From NCBI GenBank assembly GCA_944383825.1, contig CALWRA010000006.1, positions 1-64,000 on the forward strand: a DNA stretch of 64,000 nucleotides. The letters are read 5' to 3'. Positions within the stretch are counted from its first letter, which is position 1, and every line of letters starts with the position of its first letter. Of the stretch, positions 181 to 8,237 are shown piece by piece. The DNA comes from an uncultured Acetatifactor sp. GTDB taxonomy: Bacteria > Bacillota > Clostridia > Lachnospirales > Lachnospiraceae. The translations under genes were made by a program, and so were the position numbers. The notes under the pieces are model-generated. The model was not told where the DNA came from, ran no database searches, and was given only the letters and a program-made list of their open reading frames with translations.

Positions 181-575
181 ACTTTGACAACTTCATATCT
201 GTGTATCAGGCACACATCCGACCGGCCGGAGAGCCGGAAAGCACAAGTCAGGGTACGCCATGATGGATAAGTGCGAAAAGAACCACTCTATCTTGAGCGG
301 GAAATATCTGTGGCTTTACTGCCCGTGGTGGGGCAGGATGCGATGATACCGGTCGGAGATAATGATACTTCCAGTGATGGCCCGCATAAGTGGCGGGAAA
401 ATGCACACCCACGTTTGAGAAAGAATGTGGGCGGCTTTTATGATGCCTGCTTACCGGCAGGATGCCTGATGCACTTTTTTAAGCAGTAGAGATCATGGGC
501 TGGATGGAAGCTTATTTTTGTTAATAAAAAGCCAAAACGATACCTTCCAGCCTGTTCCTGTGCTGCTTTATGGCA
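181..575 (+). other. Non-coding stretch with many hairpins upstream of the helicase
   Basis: No convincing gene lies in this stretch. A 72-codon frame (271-489) has no ribosome site and unusual composition. The sequence holds a chain of short perfect hairpins: 222-226/233-237, 319-324/331-336, 381-385/393-397, 408-412/427-431 and 446-450/457-461. A longer stem pairs 498-503 with 547-552. A run of six T follows at 475-480. Such dense local pairing suggests a structured leader or a small RNA of the mobile element. I do not recognise it as a known RNA class. A TTGACA at 184-189 could be a -35 box but has no good -10 partner. Confidence 0.4.
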
Positions 576-601: not shown

Positions 602-2611
602 ATGGCGAAAAGTGCAGAAGAATTATTGATTTATTTATTTGATGAGATTTTACCGAAACATGGGATGAACCTGCGAGTGAAGCAGAAAGAGCTTTCCCTG
701 GAGATGCTCCGGGCTTTGCGGGAAAACAAGCTAGCTTTATGTGAGGCAGAGGTGGGGACAGGAAAAACCCACGCATATATCCTTGCGCTGACGGTACATA
801 ACATATATTCAAACAAAAAGGCTCCGGCGGTCATATCCACGTCAACCATAGCCTTGCAGAAAGCATTGACGGAGGAATATATACCGCAGATATCCGGCAT
901 CCTTTTGGAACACCATGTTATCGACAGACCCTTATCCTTTGTGGTGCGAAAAGGAAAACGCCATTATGTCTGTGACTACAGACTAAAGATATATGAGACA
1001 TCTATCAAAAATTTGCAAAGGGAAGCGGATGCCGATTTAATACTGGAACTGGCAAGATTGGGGGAACCGGGGGACGGCAGGATTGACCTGGACAATTCAA
1101 CGCTGACATCTTATGTAAAGGGCAGAATCAATGTGCTTCGCTGTAATCAGTCGTGTCCGTATTTTCTTTTATGCAGATTTATGATTTTGAAGAAGGAGTG
1201 TATGACGGGCAGCTTTGATTTCCAGATTGCGAACCACAATTATATCCTTGCCGATCTGATTGGACAGAGGCAGGGGAAAAAACCTCTTTTCCCGGGATAT
1301 GGGGCAATGGTGTTTGACGAGTCCCACAAGCTGCTAGATGCCGCAAGACAGATGTACAGTACAGTCTGGGACGAGCAGGATGCGGAAACTATCGTGACTT
1401 TGAGTGAAGGGAACAGAAGGGCTGCGGTTGTGGACGAGCTTATTGTATTGCGAGGGCAGTTTGCGGAATATAACAGAAAAATTTTTGGCAGACTGGCGGG
1501 AGATTTAGCAGGAAACCACACCAGGGAGGGAAGCAGGAGTGAAATCGTAATAAGGTCCGTGGAAAAAATCCATATGAGGAACATGGCAAAGGCTTTAGAG
1601 CAGCTTCCCTTGTCCTATCAGGAAAACGGTGGGCAGAAAATGCGCCTGCAAAGCCTGAAAAAGCGTTGTCAGGAGCTGGCGGACAAGCTGACCGTGTTCT
1701 TAAACAGTGATAATTACATCTGCTGGATGGAAAAGAGGGAGAATGGCAGGCTTGCCCTGTGTGCGGTTCCCATGGAGCTGGAACAAGTTTTATTCCGTGA
1801 CTTATGGAGCAGGCAGATACCGGTCATTGTCACCTCTGGCACAATGTCAGTCCGGGAAAATTTCACTCATTTTAAAAGAACGACAGGGATTTCCTTTGCG
1901 TCTCAGTCCAGGATTATGGAAACCAGCAAGCCTTCGCCCTTTGATTTTCAGAGTAATGGTCTGCTCTATATACCGGAGCGTATGCCCTTTCCGAATATCC
2001 GGGATAACAGATACATACAGGCGGCCATGGAGGAAATCATTCAGATTGTGTCCGCCACTCATGGGCATACCCTGATTCTTTTTACATCCTATTGGCTCAT
2101 GGAGAGGGTGTTTTATGGTCTGAAGGAGCAGCTTTCTGATTATCCGCTGTTTCTCATGGGCAGAGGCAGACTGGACGTGATAAGGAAATTTAGAAGAAGC
2201 GGAAACGGAGTGTTGTTTGCCAGTGACAGTGCCGGAGAGGGGATTGACCTTGCAGGAGATATCCTTTCCAGCTTGATTGTGGTAAAACTGCCGTTTCCTG
2301 TGCCGGATCCGGTTATGGAATACCAGAGAAACCAGTATGATGATTTTGATTTATACCGCAGGGAAATCATTATTCCGGAAATGCTGATTAAGCTAAGGCA
2401 GTGGTTCGGGCGCGGTATCCGCAGGGAAAAGGACACGGCGGTATTTTCCATTTTAGACAGCAGGGCATCCCTGCGTGGCAGATACCGGGCAGAGATTTTG
2501 AATACCCTGCCGGCCATGCCGGTCACGGACAGGCTCATGGACGTGGCAGACTTTATTATCAGCAAGAAAGCAGACAGTTATTTTATGGATAAGGAGCGGG
2601 AAGAAGAATGA
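602..2611 (+). CDS. DinG/XPD-type ATP-dependent DNA helicase of the mobile element
   Basis: A 669-residue superfamily 2 helicase of the DinG/XPD kind, expected to unwind DNA 5' to 3'. Walker A is GTGKT at about residues 52-56. The Walker B box reads DESH near 240. Motif VI is in the segment FGRGIRREKD near 602. Cysteines near residues 123, 181, 185 and 191 are placed like the four ligands of the iron-sulfur cluster in XPD/DinG helicases. AGGAGG precedes the ATG by 8 nt. It lies beside three serine recombinases, so it probably supports replication or processing of the element rather than housekeeping repair. Its glutamate-rich Walker A context (EAEVGTGKT) differs from the common EAGTGTGKS of chromosomal DinG. 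Confidence 0.85.
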   Translation: MAKSAEELLIYLFDEILPKHGMNLRVKQKELSLEMLRALRENKLALCEAEVGTGKTHAYILALTVHNIYSNKKAPAVISTSTIALQKALTEEYIPQISGILLEHHVIDRPLSFVVRKGKRHYVCDYRLKIYETSIKNLQREADADLILELARLGEPGDGRIDLDNSTLTSYVKGRINVLRCNQSCPYFLLCRFMILKKECMTGSFDFQIANHNYILADLIGQRQGKKPLFPGYGAMVFDESHKLLDAARQMYSTVWDEQDAETIVTLSEGNRRAAVVDELIVLRGQFAEYNRKIFGRLAGDLAGNHTREGSRSEIVIRSVEKIHMRNMAKALEQLPLSYQENGGQKMRLQSLKKRCQELADKLTVFLNSDNYICWMEKRENGRLALCAVPMELEQVLFRDLWSRQIPVIVTSGTMSVRENFTHFKRTTGISFASQSRIMETSKPSPFDFQSNGLLYIPERMPFPNIRDNRYIQAAMEEIIQIVSATHGHTLILFTSYWLMERVFYGLKEQLSDYPLFLMGRGRLDVIRKFRRSGNGVLFASDSAGEGIDLAGDILSSLIVVKLPFPVPDPVMEYQRNQYDDFDLYRREIIIPEMLIKLRQWFGRGIRREKDTAVFSILDSRASLRGRYRAEILNTLPAMPVTDRLMDVADFIISKKADSYFMDKEREEE

Positions 2612-2687
2612 GATTGGCGAGATTTCAGGTCATAAGACAATCCATATTTTGCATAAGATAGAAGAAACGGAGGAATATAGCAGTTCT

Positions 2688-2972
2688 ATGAGGAAACTAC
2701 AGGATATGAAAGATGCTCAGTGTGAAGATATCCAAAAAACAGATATCATGGAAGTGAAAAAGGGAGATTTATTGGATATTGACACGGTCGCTATCGATAA
2801 AACGCATCCCGTAGAGAAGAAATTGGAAGAATTTGTATCAGGTAACGATGGAGATTTATCAACGCACTTGAATGAGGGATATGTGGTCAGGGTGCATTTC
2901 AGCAAGGACGATTATTCCGCAACAGATGCGCTGAGACATTATCTGAAGCAAATTGCAGAGTTAAAATATTAA
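2688..2972 (+). CDS. Small mobile-element protein, DUF6870-like
   Basis: A 94-residue acidic protein with the pattern DIDTVAID...HPVEKKLEEFV...GYVVRVHFS, which resembles the DUF6870 family carried by many Firmicute mobile elements. That family has no known function. The start is uncertain. The ATG at 2688 fits the family length, but the nearest GGAGG (2669-2673) is 14 nt away. A TTG at 2649 would add 13 residues, and the frame stays open further upstream, out of phase with the end of the helicase gene. It lies between the helicase and the recombinases, where a regulator or directionality factor would be plausible, but nothing in the sequence proves this. Confidence 0.6.
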   Translation: MRKLQDMKDAQCEDIQKTDIMEVKKGDLLDIDTVAIDKTHPVEKKLEEFVSGNDGDLSTHLNEGYVVRVHFSKDDYSATDALRHYLKQIAELKY

Positions 2973-3096
2973 AAAGGATTCGACAAATACAGAAAGTTAT
3001 GTTAATCTAAAGACAGGATTGAAAAGCGGATTCCTGGCTTTAGCATGATATTTGTGAGACTTCTTATTAGCGAATATAAAGTCAGGAGCGATGCAA

Positions 3097-4752
3097 ATGG
3101 ATAACAAAAAAATTTATGATACTGGTCTCTATCTGCGTCTGTCCAAAGATGATGCAGATGTGGACGGCAATAAAAAAACAGAGAGCAACAGTATCAGCAG
3201 TCAAAGAGATATTTTAAGAGCATACGTTCAAAGCCATGAAGATTTGCGGATTTATGATATTTACATTGATGATGGCTATTCGGGAGCGAATTTTGAAAGA
3301 CCGGAATTTGAGAGAATGATGGCAGATGTTCGTGCCGGAAAAGTGAACTGTGTGTTAGTAAAAGATTTGTCAAGATTTGGACGAGATTATATAGAAGCCG
3401 GGCGGTTGATACAAAAGACCTTCCCGGCTTTAAATGTGCGCTTTATTGCGGTTACAGATGGTTTTGACAGCCTGTATGCAGACAATACAGACAGCAGCTT
3501 GATATTGCCAATTAAAAACTTTGTAAATGACAGCTATTGCAGAGATATATCTATGAAGGTCAAGGCACAGCAGAAAGTAAAGCGCATGGAAGGAAAATGT
3601 ATCGGTGCATTTACTGCTTATGGTTATAAGAAGAACCCGGAGGATAAGAACAGCCTGGTTGTTGATGAATATGCTGCAGATATTGTAAGGAAAATTTTTG
3701 CATGGAAGGTAGCAGGAATGAGTATGGCAGCAATCGCAGAAAAACTGAATACCACAGGCGTCTTATCACCACTGGAATATAAAAAATTCCTTGGTATGAA
3801 GTATTATACGGGATTTGAAGGTTCCTCTGCAGCAAAATGGGCGGCGACATCTGTGAAACGCATTTTAGTGAATCCAGTATACATCGGAACTATGGTGCAG
3901 GGAAAACAGGAGAAAGTAAATTATAAGGTAAAAAAGAGAATCAATAAACCGCAGGAAGAATGGATTTGTGTAAAAAATACCCATAAGGCCATTATATCAG
4001 AATTTGAATTTTTAACAGTCCAGGAGCTATTGAAATATGATGGGCGGGCTTCAGGCAACTCAGATAAGGCTAATTTGTTCAGTGGTGTTTTGATGTGCGC
4101 AGATTGTAAAGCCCCGATGATAAAAAGAGTAAATACCTATAAAGGGAAAAAGAAAGTATTTTTTATCTGTCAGACTAAAAATAAGTCCATGGGATGCAGC
4201 AGACACAGTATAGAGGAGGAGACGTTAAAAAAAATTGTATTTAAGGAGATTAAAAAATTCCTTGAATTGATGGCATCCTATTCGGAAGTTGCCGAGTATT
4301 TAGAGCAGATGAATGTCAATTATGAACAGGTGGTTGAATATGATTCACAGATAGCAGCACTCCAGGCAGAATATAACAGATATTATGAGCTGAAGAGCAG
4401 TCTGTTTGCCGACTTAGAGGAAGGGCTGATTGATAAAAAGGAATTTGACGAATTTTATAATTTATATGAAAGAAAATGCAGTGATTTGGAAAGTGCCATG
4501 GCTGCACAGAAGAAAATGATCAAAGATATGTTTCAGAATGGTGTTGTGGCAAAATCACAGCTCGTAAAGATTAAAGAAACATTGGAGCTTCAAGAACTGA
4601 GCAGAGAACTGCTGGTAACAACAGTCCGTAAAATATATGTTCATGAGGACAAAAGACTAGACATAGAGTTTCGATTTTCTAATGAAATGGATAAATTAGC
4701 TGTTATGAACCGGATGTATCACGAAAAAAACTCCATGCAGGAGGTGATATAA
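3097..4752 (+). CDS. Large serine recombinase, first of three
   Basis: A 551-residue large serine recombinase. The catalytic serine is S16 in LYLRLSKDD. The resolvase domain continues through VKDLSRFGRDY. The central recombinase domain is followed by a zinc-ribbon segment (CADC...CQ...GC) near residues 330-368, then a coiled-coil C-terminus. I chose the ATG at 3097 because AGGAG (3084-3088) lies 8 nt before it; an ATG at 3091 is too close. The stop codon directly abuts the ATG of the next recombinase, so the two are probably co-translated. Such enzymes join and excise element ends at attachment sites. Confidence 0.93.
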   Translation: MDNKKIYDTGLYLRLSKDDADVDGNKKTESNSISSQRDILRAYVQSHEDLRIYDIYIDDGYSGANFERPEFERMMADVRAGKVNCVLVKDLSRFGRDYIEAGRLIQKTFPALNVRFIAVTDGFDSLYADNTDSSLILPIKNFVNDSYCRDISMKVKAQQKVKRMEGKCIGAFTAYGYKKNPEDKNSLVVDEYAADIVRKIFAWKVAGMSMAAIAEKLNTTGVLSPLEYKKFLGMKYYTGFEGSSAAKWAATSVKRILVNPVYIGTMVQGKQEKVNYKVKKRINKPQEEWICVKNTHKAIISEFEFLTVQELLKYDGRASGNSDKANLFSGVLMCADCKAPMIKRVNTYKGKKKVFFICQTKNKSMGCSRHSIEEETLKKIVFKEIKKFLELMASYSEVAEYLEQMNVNYEQVVEYDSQIAALQAEYNRYYELKSSLFADLEEGLIDKKEFDEFYNLYERKCSDLESAMAAQKKMIKDMFQNGVVAKSQLVKIKETLELQELSRELLVTTVRKIYVHEDKRLDIEFRFSNEMDKLAVMNRMYHEKNSMQEVI

Positions 4753-6456
4753 ATGGCAAGGACGAAGAAAAGATACTTGGAAATGCCGACAGAGACAGAA
4801 ATTATGGAAGTGCCGGTTGTAAAGTACTCTGTTGGAATATACAGCCGATTATCAGTAAATCATGATGACAGAAAATCCGAATCTATAGAAAATCAGATAG
4901 AAATAATCCGCCAGTATATTACCTCTGAAAACAGTAATCCGAAAAAAAAGCAGATATTTGAAATTTATGATACCTACATAGATCGGGGAATTTCAGGCAC
5001 TTCCTTTGAAAGAGAAGGATTTGACAGGCTGATGGAGGATATAAGAAAGCATAACGTGAACTGCATTATTGTAAAGGATTTATCGAGATTTGGCAGAGAT
5101 TATTTAGAAACGGGAAATTATATAGAAAAAATATTACCGTTTTTAGGGGTTCGGTTTATAGCGGTTACAGATGGATTTGATTCCATGTCTGAAAATGTTT
5201 CGGAAAAAAAACTGGCAATGAACATTAGGAATCTTGTAAATGATATGTATGCAAAGGACATATCAAAAAGAGTTATGGCGGCAAGGAAAATTGCCGCCGG
5301 GAGAGGTGCGTTTATCGGAAGTATCACACCTTATGGATATACTGCGAAAGAAATAAACGGAATAAGGAAACTGGTAATTCATTCCGGAAATGCGGAGATT
5401 GTACGTTATCTTTTTGAAAGCTATGCATCCGGCATTTCTTGGGGCGAAATGGTATCATGCCTTTATCAGAAGAAAGTGCATAGAATCAGCGATTACAATA
5501 AATATGGCCATACATATTGGGAAAAAGGAGAGATACTTCATCAGTGGAATTCAAGTGTTATCATGGGTGTGTTATCAAATCCGGTATACACAGGCAAGCT
5601 CGTGCAATGCAGGAAAAAATCCCGATTACAGGAGGGAGAGAAAGGAAACCGCTATACTGGAGAAAATGAATGGATTACAGTAGAAAACAGCCACGAACCA
5701 ATCGTAGAGCAGGAATTGTTTGAGAAGGTAAATGCGAGATTGAAAAAAACGGAGGAGAGGTCTGCTGATACGAGAAAATCCGGAAAGAGTGCTGTGGCGG
5801 ACGATGAAAATATTTTCCGCCATATTCTTTACTGTGGGAACTGTGGTGGTAAAATGCGCGCAACATATTACCAGAGCAGGGTGAATGGAAAAAAGAGTTA
5901 TTCGTATCATTGCCGGAGAGCCTATTATATTGATGGCAGAAGATGCTCTAAAAATTACATAAAAGAAGAACAGCTTGAACGCTGCTGTTTAGAGCAGATG
6001 AAGCGGATTTTGAAAGAACAGAAGCTTTCTTCCAAGACTCTGACAGATATGAACAATTTAGAATGTGAAAAAAAGAAGGCAGCTTATCTGGAAGAACAAA
6101 ATAAAATCATGCAGGAGAGACAGAAACTCAGTGTGCAGGCAGCAACTTTGTATATGCAGCATAAAGAAGGCTGTGTAAGCGTTCAGGAGTATTTTTCTTT
6201 TCGGGAAAACAGAGCTGAGTATGAGAATTTTTATGAGAAGAGAATGGAGGAATTAAAGCGGAAAATAAGAAAGAGTGAAATAAGGGCAGAGGAACAGAAT
6301 AAGTTCTTGCGTTCCCTGCAGAAAGCAAAAGGATGTAAAAAACTAAATATTCAGCTGATAGAGTCTTTGATAGAGAAGATTACTGTTTCACCGGATGGAG
6401 CGATAGATATCCAGTTCCAGTTTAAAAATGAAGTTGGGGGTGAAGGAGATGCCTGA
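4753..6456 (+). CDS. Large serine recombinase, second of three
   Basis: A 567-residue large serine recombinase. The catalytic serine is S34 in IYSRLSVNHDD, within an N-terminus about 18 residues longer than in its neighbours. The segment VKDLSRFGRDYLE completes the active-site region. A zinc ribbon follows (CGNCGGKM... and a later C...C pair), then a lysine/glutamate-rich coiled coil. AGGAGG lies 7 nt before the ATG, inside the end of the previous gene. The three recombinases differ clearly in sequence, so they are not a recent triplication. Confidence 0.93.
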   Translation: MARTKKRYLEMPTETEIMEVPVVKYSVGIYSRLSVNHDDRKSESIENQIEIIRQYITSENSNPKKKQIFEIYDTYIDRGISGTSFEREGFDRLMEDIRKHNVNCIIVKDLSRFGRDYLETGNYIEKILPFLGVRFIAVTDGFDSMSENVSEKKLAMNIRNLVNDMYAKDISKRVMAARKIAAGRGAFIGSITPYGYTAKEINGIRKLVIHSGNAEIVRYLFESYASGISWGEMVSCLYQKKVHRISDYNKYGHTYWEKGEILHQWNSSVIMGVLSNPVYTGKLVQCRKKSRLQEGEKGNRYTGENEWITVENSHEPIVEQELFEKVNARLKKTEERSADTRKSGKSAVADDENIFRHILYCGNCGGKMRATYYQSRVNGKKSYSYHCRRAYYIDGRRCSKNYIKEEQLERCCLEQMKRILKEQKLSSKTLTDMNNLECEKKKAAYLEEQNKIMQERQKLSVQAATLYMQHKEGCVSVQEYFSFRENRAEYENFYEKRMEELKRKIRKSEIRAEEQNKFLRSLQKAKGCKKLNIQLIESLIEKITVSPDGAIDIQFQFKNEVGGEGDA

Positions 6457-8038
6457 TAATAAACTTGCAGGATACTACCGTCTTTCTGTGGAGGATGATG
6501 ACATTAAGGTGGAAAGCAACAGTATTACAAATCAGAGACGGTTGATTAAGAGATATATTTCAGAGCATCCAGAGCTTTCCTGTTATGAATACTGCGAATT
6601 TTATGATGATGGCGTCTCGGGAACAACAATGGACAGGCCAGGTCTGCAGGCTATGCTTGAAAAAATAAAACAAAATGAAATCAAATGTGTCATTGTGAAA
6701 GACCTGTCACGGTTCTCAAGGGATTACATCGAATTAGGTACTTACATGGAGCAGATTTTCCCATTTATGGGTATCCGTTTTATCTCTGTCGCGGAACATT
6801 ATGACAGTAAGGATTATATAGGGAAAACGGCTGATATTGATATCGGCTTTCAAAGTCTGCTGGCAGACTTTTACTGCAAGGACGTTTCTGAAAAAGTGAG
6901 AAGCTCTGTAATGGCAAAGAAAAATCAAGGCAAATATGCAACGGGAAATACACCTTTTGGATATGTGAAGAATGAGGACAACCGGAAGGAATTACTGATT
7001 GTGCCGGAGGAAGCCGAAGTAATCCGACATATTTTTGAACTGTCTTTGTCAGGGCAGAATTTGACGCAGATATGCAGAACATTGAATGATGAGAAAGTGC
7101 CTACACCGCTGGAATACAAAAATAAAAGAAAGAAACAGAACCGAAAGGAATTGCAACAGGAACATAAATACTGGCAGCCGGGAACCGTAAGAGCAATACT
7201 GACAAATGAAAGCTATCTTGGCAGCATGGTTTATAACAAATCTGTTCAAGCGCAAGTGGGCGGAAGCCGGGCAATTATAAAACCGAGGGAAGAATGGAAG
7301 GTATATAAAAATCATCATTCCGCTATCATCAGCAAAGAAGTGTTTGATAAGGTGCAGGAAAAGTTTTTCTGCAAAAAAGCAATGGTAAGGAAGTCTGTTC
7401 AATATGCACTGAAGGGAAAGGTGTATTGCGAATATTGCCATCGCAGGCTAAGAATTATGAAACTGGCAGGTGACAGATTGTTTTATTATTGTCCGAATCA
7501 AAAGCTGAATAGTAATAATAAATGTCTCTCCGGAAGCGTTAGTAATGAGGTATTAGAGAAAATTATATTGGAAGAAATTAAGGTGCAGATAACAAAACTG
7601 GCAGACTTGGCGAGCGTCAGAAAGGAAGCTGTAGAGGAACAACGCATAAGCACCAGGAAAGCAGATAAAGAAGTGAAGCGTGTAGAAGCAGAAATAACAA
7701 AACTGACAGCGAGCAAGGCTGGCTTGCTGGAGGCATATCATGCGGGTAATTATACGAAAGAGCAGTATATGGAATACCGCAGGCAGCTGGAACAGCAGAT
7801 TTCTGAAAAACGGATGCAGCAGGAGAAGATAAAGAAGAAGTCAGATACTCGTAATAATTTATTGTGTGCAGATACAAGGGATTATGAGAGCTTCCTGCGA
7901 TATGCCAATTTTGGGACACTTACAAAAGAAATGGCGGATGTATTTACGGAAGCGATAGAAATAAGTAATGAGAAAACCATCAACATTTATTGGAAATTTA
8001 ATAATAACGCCAGTCCACGAAGCTTCAAGGAAAAATGA
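6449..8038 (+). CDS. Large serine recombinase, third of three
   Basis: A 529-residue large serine recombinase with catalytic S13 in GYYRLSVEDDD, the conserved VKDLSRFSRDYIE segment, a zinc ribbon (CEYC...CPNQ...KC near residues 330-360) and a long coiled coil. I chose the ATG at 6449, preceded by GGTGAAGGAG. It overlaps the previous gene by 8 nt, so translation is probably coupled. As the last gene before the chromosomal flank it sits where an element's integrase is usually found. Which of the three performs integration cannot be told from sequence. One or two may be partners in a heteromeric complex, as the ccrA/ccrB pair of SCC elements suggests. Confidence 0.93.
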   Translation: MPDNKLAGYYRLSVEDDDIKVESNSITNQRRLIKRYISEHPELSCYEYCEFYDDGVSGTTMDRPGLQAMLEKIKQNEIKCVIVKDLSRFSRDYIELGTYMEQIFPFMGIRFISVAEHYDSKDYIGKTADIDIGFQSLLADFYCKDVSEKVRSSVMAKKNQGKYATGNTPFGYVKNEDNRKELLIVPEEAEVIRHIFELSLSGQNLTQICRTLNDEKVPTPLEYKNKRKKQNRKELQQEHKYWQPGTVRAILTNESYLGSMVYNKSVQAQVGGSRAIIKPREEWKVYKNHHSAIISKEVFDKVQEKFFCKKAMVRKSVQYALKGKVYCEYCHRRLRIMKLAGDRLFYYCPNQKLNSNNKCLSGSVSNEVLEKIILEEIKVQITKLADLASVRKEAVEEQRISTRKADKEVKRVEAEITKLTASKAGLLEAYHAGNYTKEQYMEYRRQLEQQISEKRMQQEKIKKKSDTRNNLLCADTRDYESFLRYANFGTLTKEMADVFTEAIEISNEKTINIYWKFNNNASPRSFKEK

Positions 8039-8039
8039 G

Positions 8040-8237
8040 GATAAAAAAGCTTATAAATTCTACGGCAGCTACTTGACAGGAACGGGGATTGTGAGGGGCA
8101 ATGATTTGTTTTTATACGGAGAGAAGGTAAAGGCATATTTGAGAAACGGCGCAAGACCTATACGGGGAGAGTCAGAATATCCGAATGAACGTGTTGGCTT
8201 TGGCGCATTGTGCGTAGTAGACAGTCTGCCGTTGTAA
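8040..8237 (+). pseudogene. Possible 3' remnant of a gene interrupted by the element
   Basis: An open frame continues without a start or ribosome site from within the end of the third recombinase to a TAA at 8235-8237. Its last 65 codons have normal protein composition (glycine, tyrosine, few rare residues). This fits the C-terminal part of a host gene cut by integration, with the other part at the unseen left end. I do not recognise the protein. It could also be a chance open frame. Confidence 0.35.

Follow-up and report, generated by a model that had tools for sequence, protein, structure and literature searches.

A triple large serine recombinase element at an interrupted germination-protease gene in an uncultured Acetatifactor

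Why would a single element carry three large serine recombinases (LSRs), and where does it insert? The window, a stretch of 64,000 nucleotides that is contig C6 of an uncultured Acetatifactor genome (G000) from its first base, raises this question at positions 602-8038, where re-reading of the open reading frames confirmed three intact and coupled LSRs, R1 to R3, behind a helicase and a DUF6870 protein. We conclude that these five genes almost certainly constitute the right end of an integrated triple-LSR element that sits in the gene of a Csp-like germination protease (csp). The full reading, a csp-inserted element whose triad acts as a mixed-complex integrase and excisionase, we place at a probability of about 0.5. 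The features on which it draws are the following (window coordinates unless a contig is given):

361-439, + strand: dinG RNA motif 5' of the helicase gene (Rfam RF03082, 60.6 bits, above the gathering score)
602-2611, + strand: DinG/YoaA-like helicase (Helicase_C_2 and DinG/YoaA models of Pfam and NCBIfam)
2649-2972, + strand: DUF6870 protein, TTG start (PF21757, 40 bits)
3091-4752, + strand: R1, internal LSR (PF00239, PF07508, PF13408)
4753-6456, + strand: R2, middle LSR (PF00239, PF07508, PF13408)
6428-8038, + strand: R3, external LSR, alternative start at 6449 (PF00239, PF07508, PF13408)
8062-8077, - strand: right-arm half-site, read outward as GTCAAGTAGCTGCCGT, with the pattern GG-7 nt-GTCAAG
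8085-8086, no strand: attR core, inferred crossover dinucleotide GG, the first two bases of a csp Gly codon
8085-8237, + strand: 3' fragment of the disrupted csp gene, its last ~50 codons, directly after R3
G000:C24:1431-2879, - strand: 5' part of the same csp gene, residues 2-484

The five genes and the interrupted csp gene

The first-pass annotation had described three divergent LSRs lying head to tail directly behind a DinG-type helicase and a small protein. The ORF positions agree, with the TAA of R1 directly meeting the ATG of R2 at 4752/4753, and the Pfam and NCBIfam models confirm the helicase and identify the small protein as DUF6870. The 8-nt overlap it gave for R2 and R3 (6449-6456) applies if R3 starts at the ATG at 6449, and grows to 29 nt with the ATG at 6428. 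As it had claimed for the catalytic serine and the zinc ribbon, the catalytic residues are kept in all three proteins, whose Resolvase, Recombinase and Zn_ribbon_recom domains all score above the Pfam cut-offs; in line with its suggestion that all three may be active, they are apparently so. The DUF6870 protein, frequent but not universal upstream of the triads collected here, is by its position alone a candidate directionality factor. Elsewhere in G000, six more matches to PF07508 (on contigs C18, C32, C37, C31 and C4) are unrelated to the triad, some of them truncated or with a stop.

The informative part of the locus is its insertion site, overlooked in the first-pass annotation, whose interpretation is therefore only partly borne out; the dinG RNA and the start of the contig inside the element had likewise escaped it. 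In the numbering of an intact relative (P0001), csp is split in G000 into residues 2-484 on contig C24 and only residues 480-533 on C6. The product belongs to the subtilases of Csp type, matching Peptidase_S8 and CspB_prodomain, with germination proteases as its best PDB relatives (e.g., CspB, 4i0w, E 9e-81), and it is intact in most genomes of the genus, mostly as open frames of ~590-700 residues. Past LLMEWG, the piece on C24 runs into GGAGGGAGGTATAATAAGGTTAC, followed by an intergenic stretch and then a ParA gene. With the 3' piece of csp on C6 and the 5' piece on C24 together with ParA, the window represents the right end of the element and C24 its left end; and since C6 begins at the first base of the window, the contig starts inside the element, the middle of which, between C24 and C6, is unassembled. 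Alignment of both ends with intact csp genes, in the manner of the comparison of occupied and empty sites that had been proposed for defining attL and attR, places the putative crossover at GG, within a Gly codon.

As to the kind of element, G000, whose assembly covers the element only in part, yielded no PF03432 relaxase, and no relaxase or conjugation genes are visible in the gene lists of three complete relatives (L041, L044 and L066). A prophage was considered and rejected, there being no phage genes in those lists. Plasmid and phage collections yielded solely relatives of R1, at less than 60% identity, and the attP pattern had no match in viral contigs.

Related insertions, their cargo and three target motifs

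The attR of the window is shared with nine loci (L039 to L046 and L066; L045 is Kineothrix alysoides), and attL is also the same wherever both ends are present among them; several loci in this analysis come from metagenome assemblies, and L043 and L044 are near-identical. The complete elements measure 6.9 kb (L041, with hemerythrin/response-regulator cargo), 8.4 kb (L044) and 10.0 kb (L066, with PAPS-reductase-family and GTPase/APS-kinase proteins, a CysD-/CysNC-like cargo). When the flanks are joined at GG, an open in-frame csp results for the window, L041, L044 and L066, as well as for elements in the genomes G292, G162 and G251; an eighth case, G256, has a frame open across the junction and its two ends on different contigs.

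The five-gene order, for which a search in relatives had been suggested, did not hold as a unit: DUF6870 is not universal, and the helicase is present in the window, L039 and L045 and is missing from the complete elements L041, L044 and L066. It is an optional, variable gene of the element family and would count, with ParA and the rest of the gene content between the two ends, as variable cargo or a maintenance function. The dinG RNA is confined to element loci with the helicase (window 361-439, L039:470-550 and L045:5144-5229).

In L039, where ParA follows the triad, we considered an excised circle and rejected it, as the junction has the csp piece and then a second, different left end. This second left end (TTATAATTGGACTAAGTTAG) and the ParA gene come directly after the attR csp piece (L039:8620-10341), and probably mark a second element at another csp codon (YLYG). 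L040 has two more overlapping LSR genes directly 5' of the triad (L040:100-3224), far from R1-R3 in the tree. The csp element of G292 (L205 and L162; G292:C1:2701000-2726400) spans 23.7 kb and encodes MobC-like and relaxase-like proteins and transporter cargo; by inspection, it is a mobilizable element.

Insertions into csp occur at three motifs, namely the catalytic Asp motif, a site after the Ser helix and a site near the C terminus, with the GG core falling in a Gly codon of csp, inside a run of G; this agrees with the triplet modules, whose insertions lie within protein-coding genes and have repeats of 2-8 bp. The catalytic Asp motif (DSG/I, the slash marking the break) is occupied in G256, by the G191 triad (L170), by a triad of G375 (L171) and by the second element of G028, and the C-terminal site (YG or WG, then an ALC-type sequence) in G292, G162, G251 and G200, where ~nine residues are replaced; in G200, the left end alone was seen. 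In G028, a single csp gene lies in three pieces through two elements, one of 16 kb at DSG/I with a triad of its own and the other the 10-kb L066 after the Ser helix. The apparent cargo of the former (L220:1-18101; G028:C15:30800-48900) comprises CheA, CheB, CheR, CheW, an MCP and response regulators. An unbiased scan of 397 genomes of the family with the left-end pattern GGGGANNNNGTTATAATAAGGTNA returned seven matches, and the reversed pattern returned none. Each of the seven falls in csp, the C-terminal site accounting for four and the position after the Ser helix for three. Because GG forms codon positions 1-2, the truncated Csp is always continued by the left end in the same frame, as a short tail; in the attL of the csp elements L124, L066, L205 and L211 this tail reads, for example, EGVIIRLR or EDVIIRLH before the stop.

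For triads from Streptococcus, Peptoniphilus, Anaerococcus and Clostridium, the Gly codon at the element's end lies in a methylase or helicase motif (N6_Mtase, N6_N4_Mtase, ResIII and SWI2/SNF2), and the L174 triad ends at an M23 peptidase, with L050 looking alike. We found no report of a triple-LSR insertion in csp in the open-access literature; what is new here is insertion at a GG core in a csp Gly codon, at three motifs.

That relatives repeatedly break the csp family, at three different conserved motifs, hints at a connection with spore formation that can be tested. Such a link could be developmental, the element excising at sporulation, like skin or gin, and rebuilding csp once its protease is required for germination, a reading that we consider quite improbable. 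It draws on the nature of the target, a Csp germination protease, on the eight joined frames that are open, on SpoIVA being encoded in all 11 element-bearing genomes tested (11/11), on three separate sites in one gene family, which suggest that the gene itself is favoured, and on the precedents of gin, skin and SP-beta. G000, however, keeps another csp paralogue, insertions at the C-terminal site alter only about nine residues, so that inactivation is not a necessary outcome, and undamaged csp fragments could be no more than a sign of recent insertion. Skin and SP-beta, like the csp elements, are LSR elements that interrupt a sporulation-related gene, but they are prophages or prophage-like and use a single LSR with a directionality factor. 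With gin, located in gerE of Bacillus cereus ATCC10987 (PMC5595907), the csp elements share a non-phage character, three LSR genes, a position inside a gene of the sporulation programme and restoration of the frame by precise excision, here predicted from the joined flanks; they differ in that girC lies apart from girAB and in the gin overlap, CATCTCAAA as against the GG core. Sporulation-timed excision is a demonstrated feature of gin and a hypothesis for the csp elements.

Three recombinases inherited together

We collected 49 groups of exactly three LSRs whose ends abut, overlap or lie close, and this recurrence in ~49 loci means that the arrangement in the window is not a matter of chance. 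An alignment of 50 triads shows no variation, wherever the residues are covered, in the nucleophile Ser or its Arg and Asp partners at any of the three positions. Mean identity is 0.46 for R1, the most conserved, 0.35 for R2 and 0.38 for R3, and the pairwise distances correlate at 0.94, 0.86 and 0.92. In a quick tree of 99 proteins (FastTree), R1, R2 and R3 fall into three groups that share one pattern of sub-groups, except for a few long-branched R2 sequences (L052, L058 and L070) outside the main R2 group. Gene order, coupling, preserved catalytic residues and matching sub-branches thus indicate that the triad is inherited as a unit. The first-pass annotation had named, as the finding that would speak against its reading, one LSR conserved with the element and the other two decayed or absent in relatives; instead, all three are conserved and catalytically intact in ~50 triads. 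Longer runs also occur, with four LSR genes in L089:6802-13209 and a triad plus two more LSRs in L058:8353-17458.

In 20 of the 50 triads, R2 has lost its zinc-binding cysteines and kept its catalytic residues; these are loci of the Streptococcus/Peptoniphilus/Anaerococcus/Clostridium type, and the loss affects solely the middle position, in one lineage. Such confinement fits divided roles among the three proteins.

The annotation had also mentioned recombinase triads in streptococcal ICEs, which matches the published triplets of serine integrases at mutT, traG and hsdM sites (PMC4701971). Clustering by position was already reported for these triplets (Ambroset et al., 2016, PMC4701971); in the triads collected here, it extends across Firmicutes. 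The elements described here resemble them in having three adjacent LSRs in the same direction that cluster by position (external, middle and internal), in interrupting a protein gene, with repeats that are very short, and in the right-arm pattern GG-7 nt-GTCAAG, found in both. Unlike the streptococcal ICEs, they target csp at three motifs, keep the zinc cysteines of R2 and have direct half-site copies at their ends, and the complete elements measure 7-10 kb, with no visible conjugation genes.

SCC elements (CcrA/CcrB/CcrC) are likewise LSR-driven cassettes with more than one recombinase. Membership of the SCC/Ccr family was rejected, the best Ccr model scoring ~125 bits against cut-offs of 700-900 and the target also being different.

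A single LSR might nevertheless carry out integration and excision at csp while the other two travel with the element and act elsewhere, in dimer resolution, cargo exchange or at a second target, and to this we assign a smaller yet substantial likelihood. In gin, the main counter-example to a mixed complex, GirC with GirX suffices and girAB is dispensable (PMC5595907); in the triads, conservation is clearly highest for R1. The precedent is imperfect, since gin has just two of its three LSR genes adjacent, in two sets with different histories, whereas the three studied here are coupled and co-inherited throughout, with their catalytic residues intact. We lean towards the triad as the element's integrase and excisionase, and see a mixed synaptic complex as its likeliest mode of operation, with a chance only slightly below even.

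Half-sites and a possible mixed complex

Inspection by eye gave the half-site motif, which leave-one-out scans then put to the test. Outward from GG, the right arm reads 7 nt and then GTCAAGTAGTTGCTAC, and the left arm 7 nt and then GTTATAATAAGGTTAC; in attP, the two arms thus represent a single 16-bp motif in variant, inverted forms, at a constant spacing of 7 nt from GG. The pattern GG-7 nt-GTCAAG is common to most triads with a findable end, streptococcal ones included. Several relatives repeat the motif at their ends, in an array whose copies have a consensus of about GTTACATTATTGCTAC; the extra copies run in one direction, and L066 has them near both its ends, L044 near its right end and the G292 element at either end. 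With the consensus strings aligned by eye in one register, the array matches the right arm at 11/16 positions (shuffle p 0.0002) and the left arm also at 11/16 (p 0.0006), and the arms resemble each other weakly (7/16, p 0.11). A 21-bp scan trained without the tested element found no motif copies inside the 7-24 kb elements, and its sole match outside L066 is the right end of a neighbouring element.

If the triad does form a mixed complex, different LSRs would occupy the different half-site variants, GTCAAGTAGTTGCTAC in the right arm, GTTATAATAAGGTTAC in the left arm and about GTTACATTATTGCTAC in the array. The complex would then pair attP with the csp motif, and strands would be cut at GG and exchanged.

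Neither L041 nor the window has the repeat array, and insertion hence does not strictly depend on it. In comparison with L039 and L040, ~110 bp carrying motif copies are absent from the window. This raises the prospect that the copy in the window has lost its mobility, a deletion having taken its end repeats and changed the C terminus of R3, which does differ from that of L039 and L040. We regard this as unlikely: the three LSR genes have open frames and intact catalytic sites, neither csp fragment shows damage, and the end of L041 is equally short.

The boldest extension of these findings, which we rate as the least probable of the readings given here, is that spore-forming Lachnospiraceae harbour a widespread class of triple-LSR elements specialised on genes for germination proteases and acting as a reversible switch, a heteromeric LSR complex excising the element during sporulation and rebuilding csp, and that lineages independently evolved three crossover motifs in one gene family. 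For the question of why one element needs three LSRs, the csp clade lends itself to tests: attL, attR, attB and attP are defined, complete elements measure only 7-10 kb, there are three variants of the half-site alongside the three recombinases, and some of its carriers are isolates (Kineothrix alysoides KNHs209 and Lachnospiraceae IMSAGC_003). A kind of element known from streptococcal antibiotic-resistance ICEs repeatedly strikes germination-protease genes in gut Lachnospiraceae, and its insertions in csp could affect spore germination in these bacteria.
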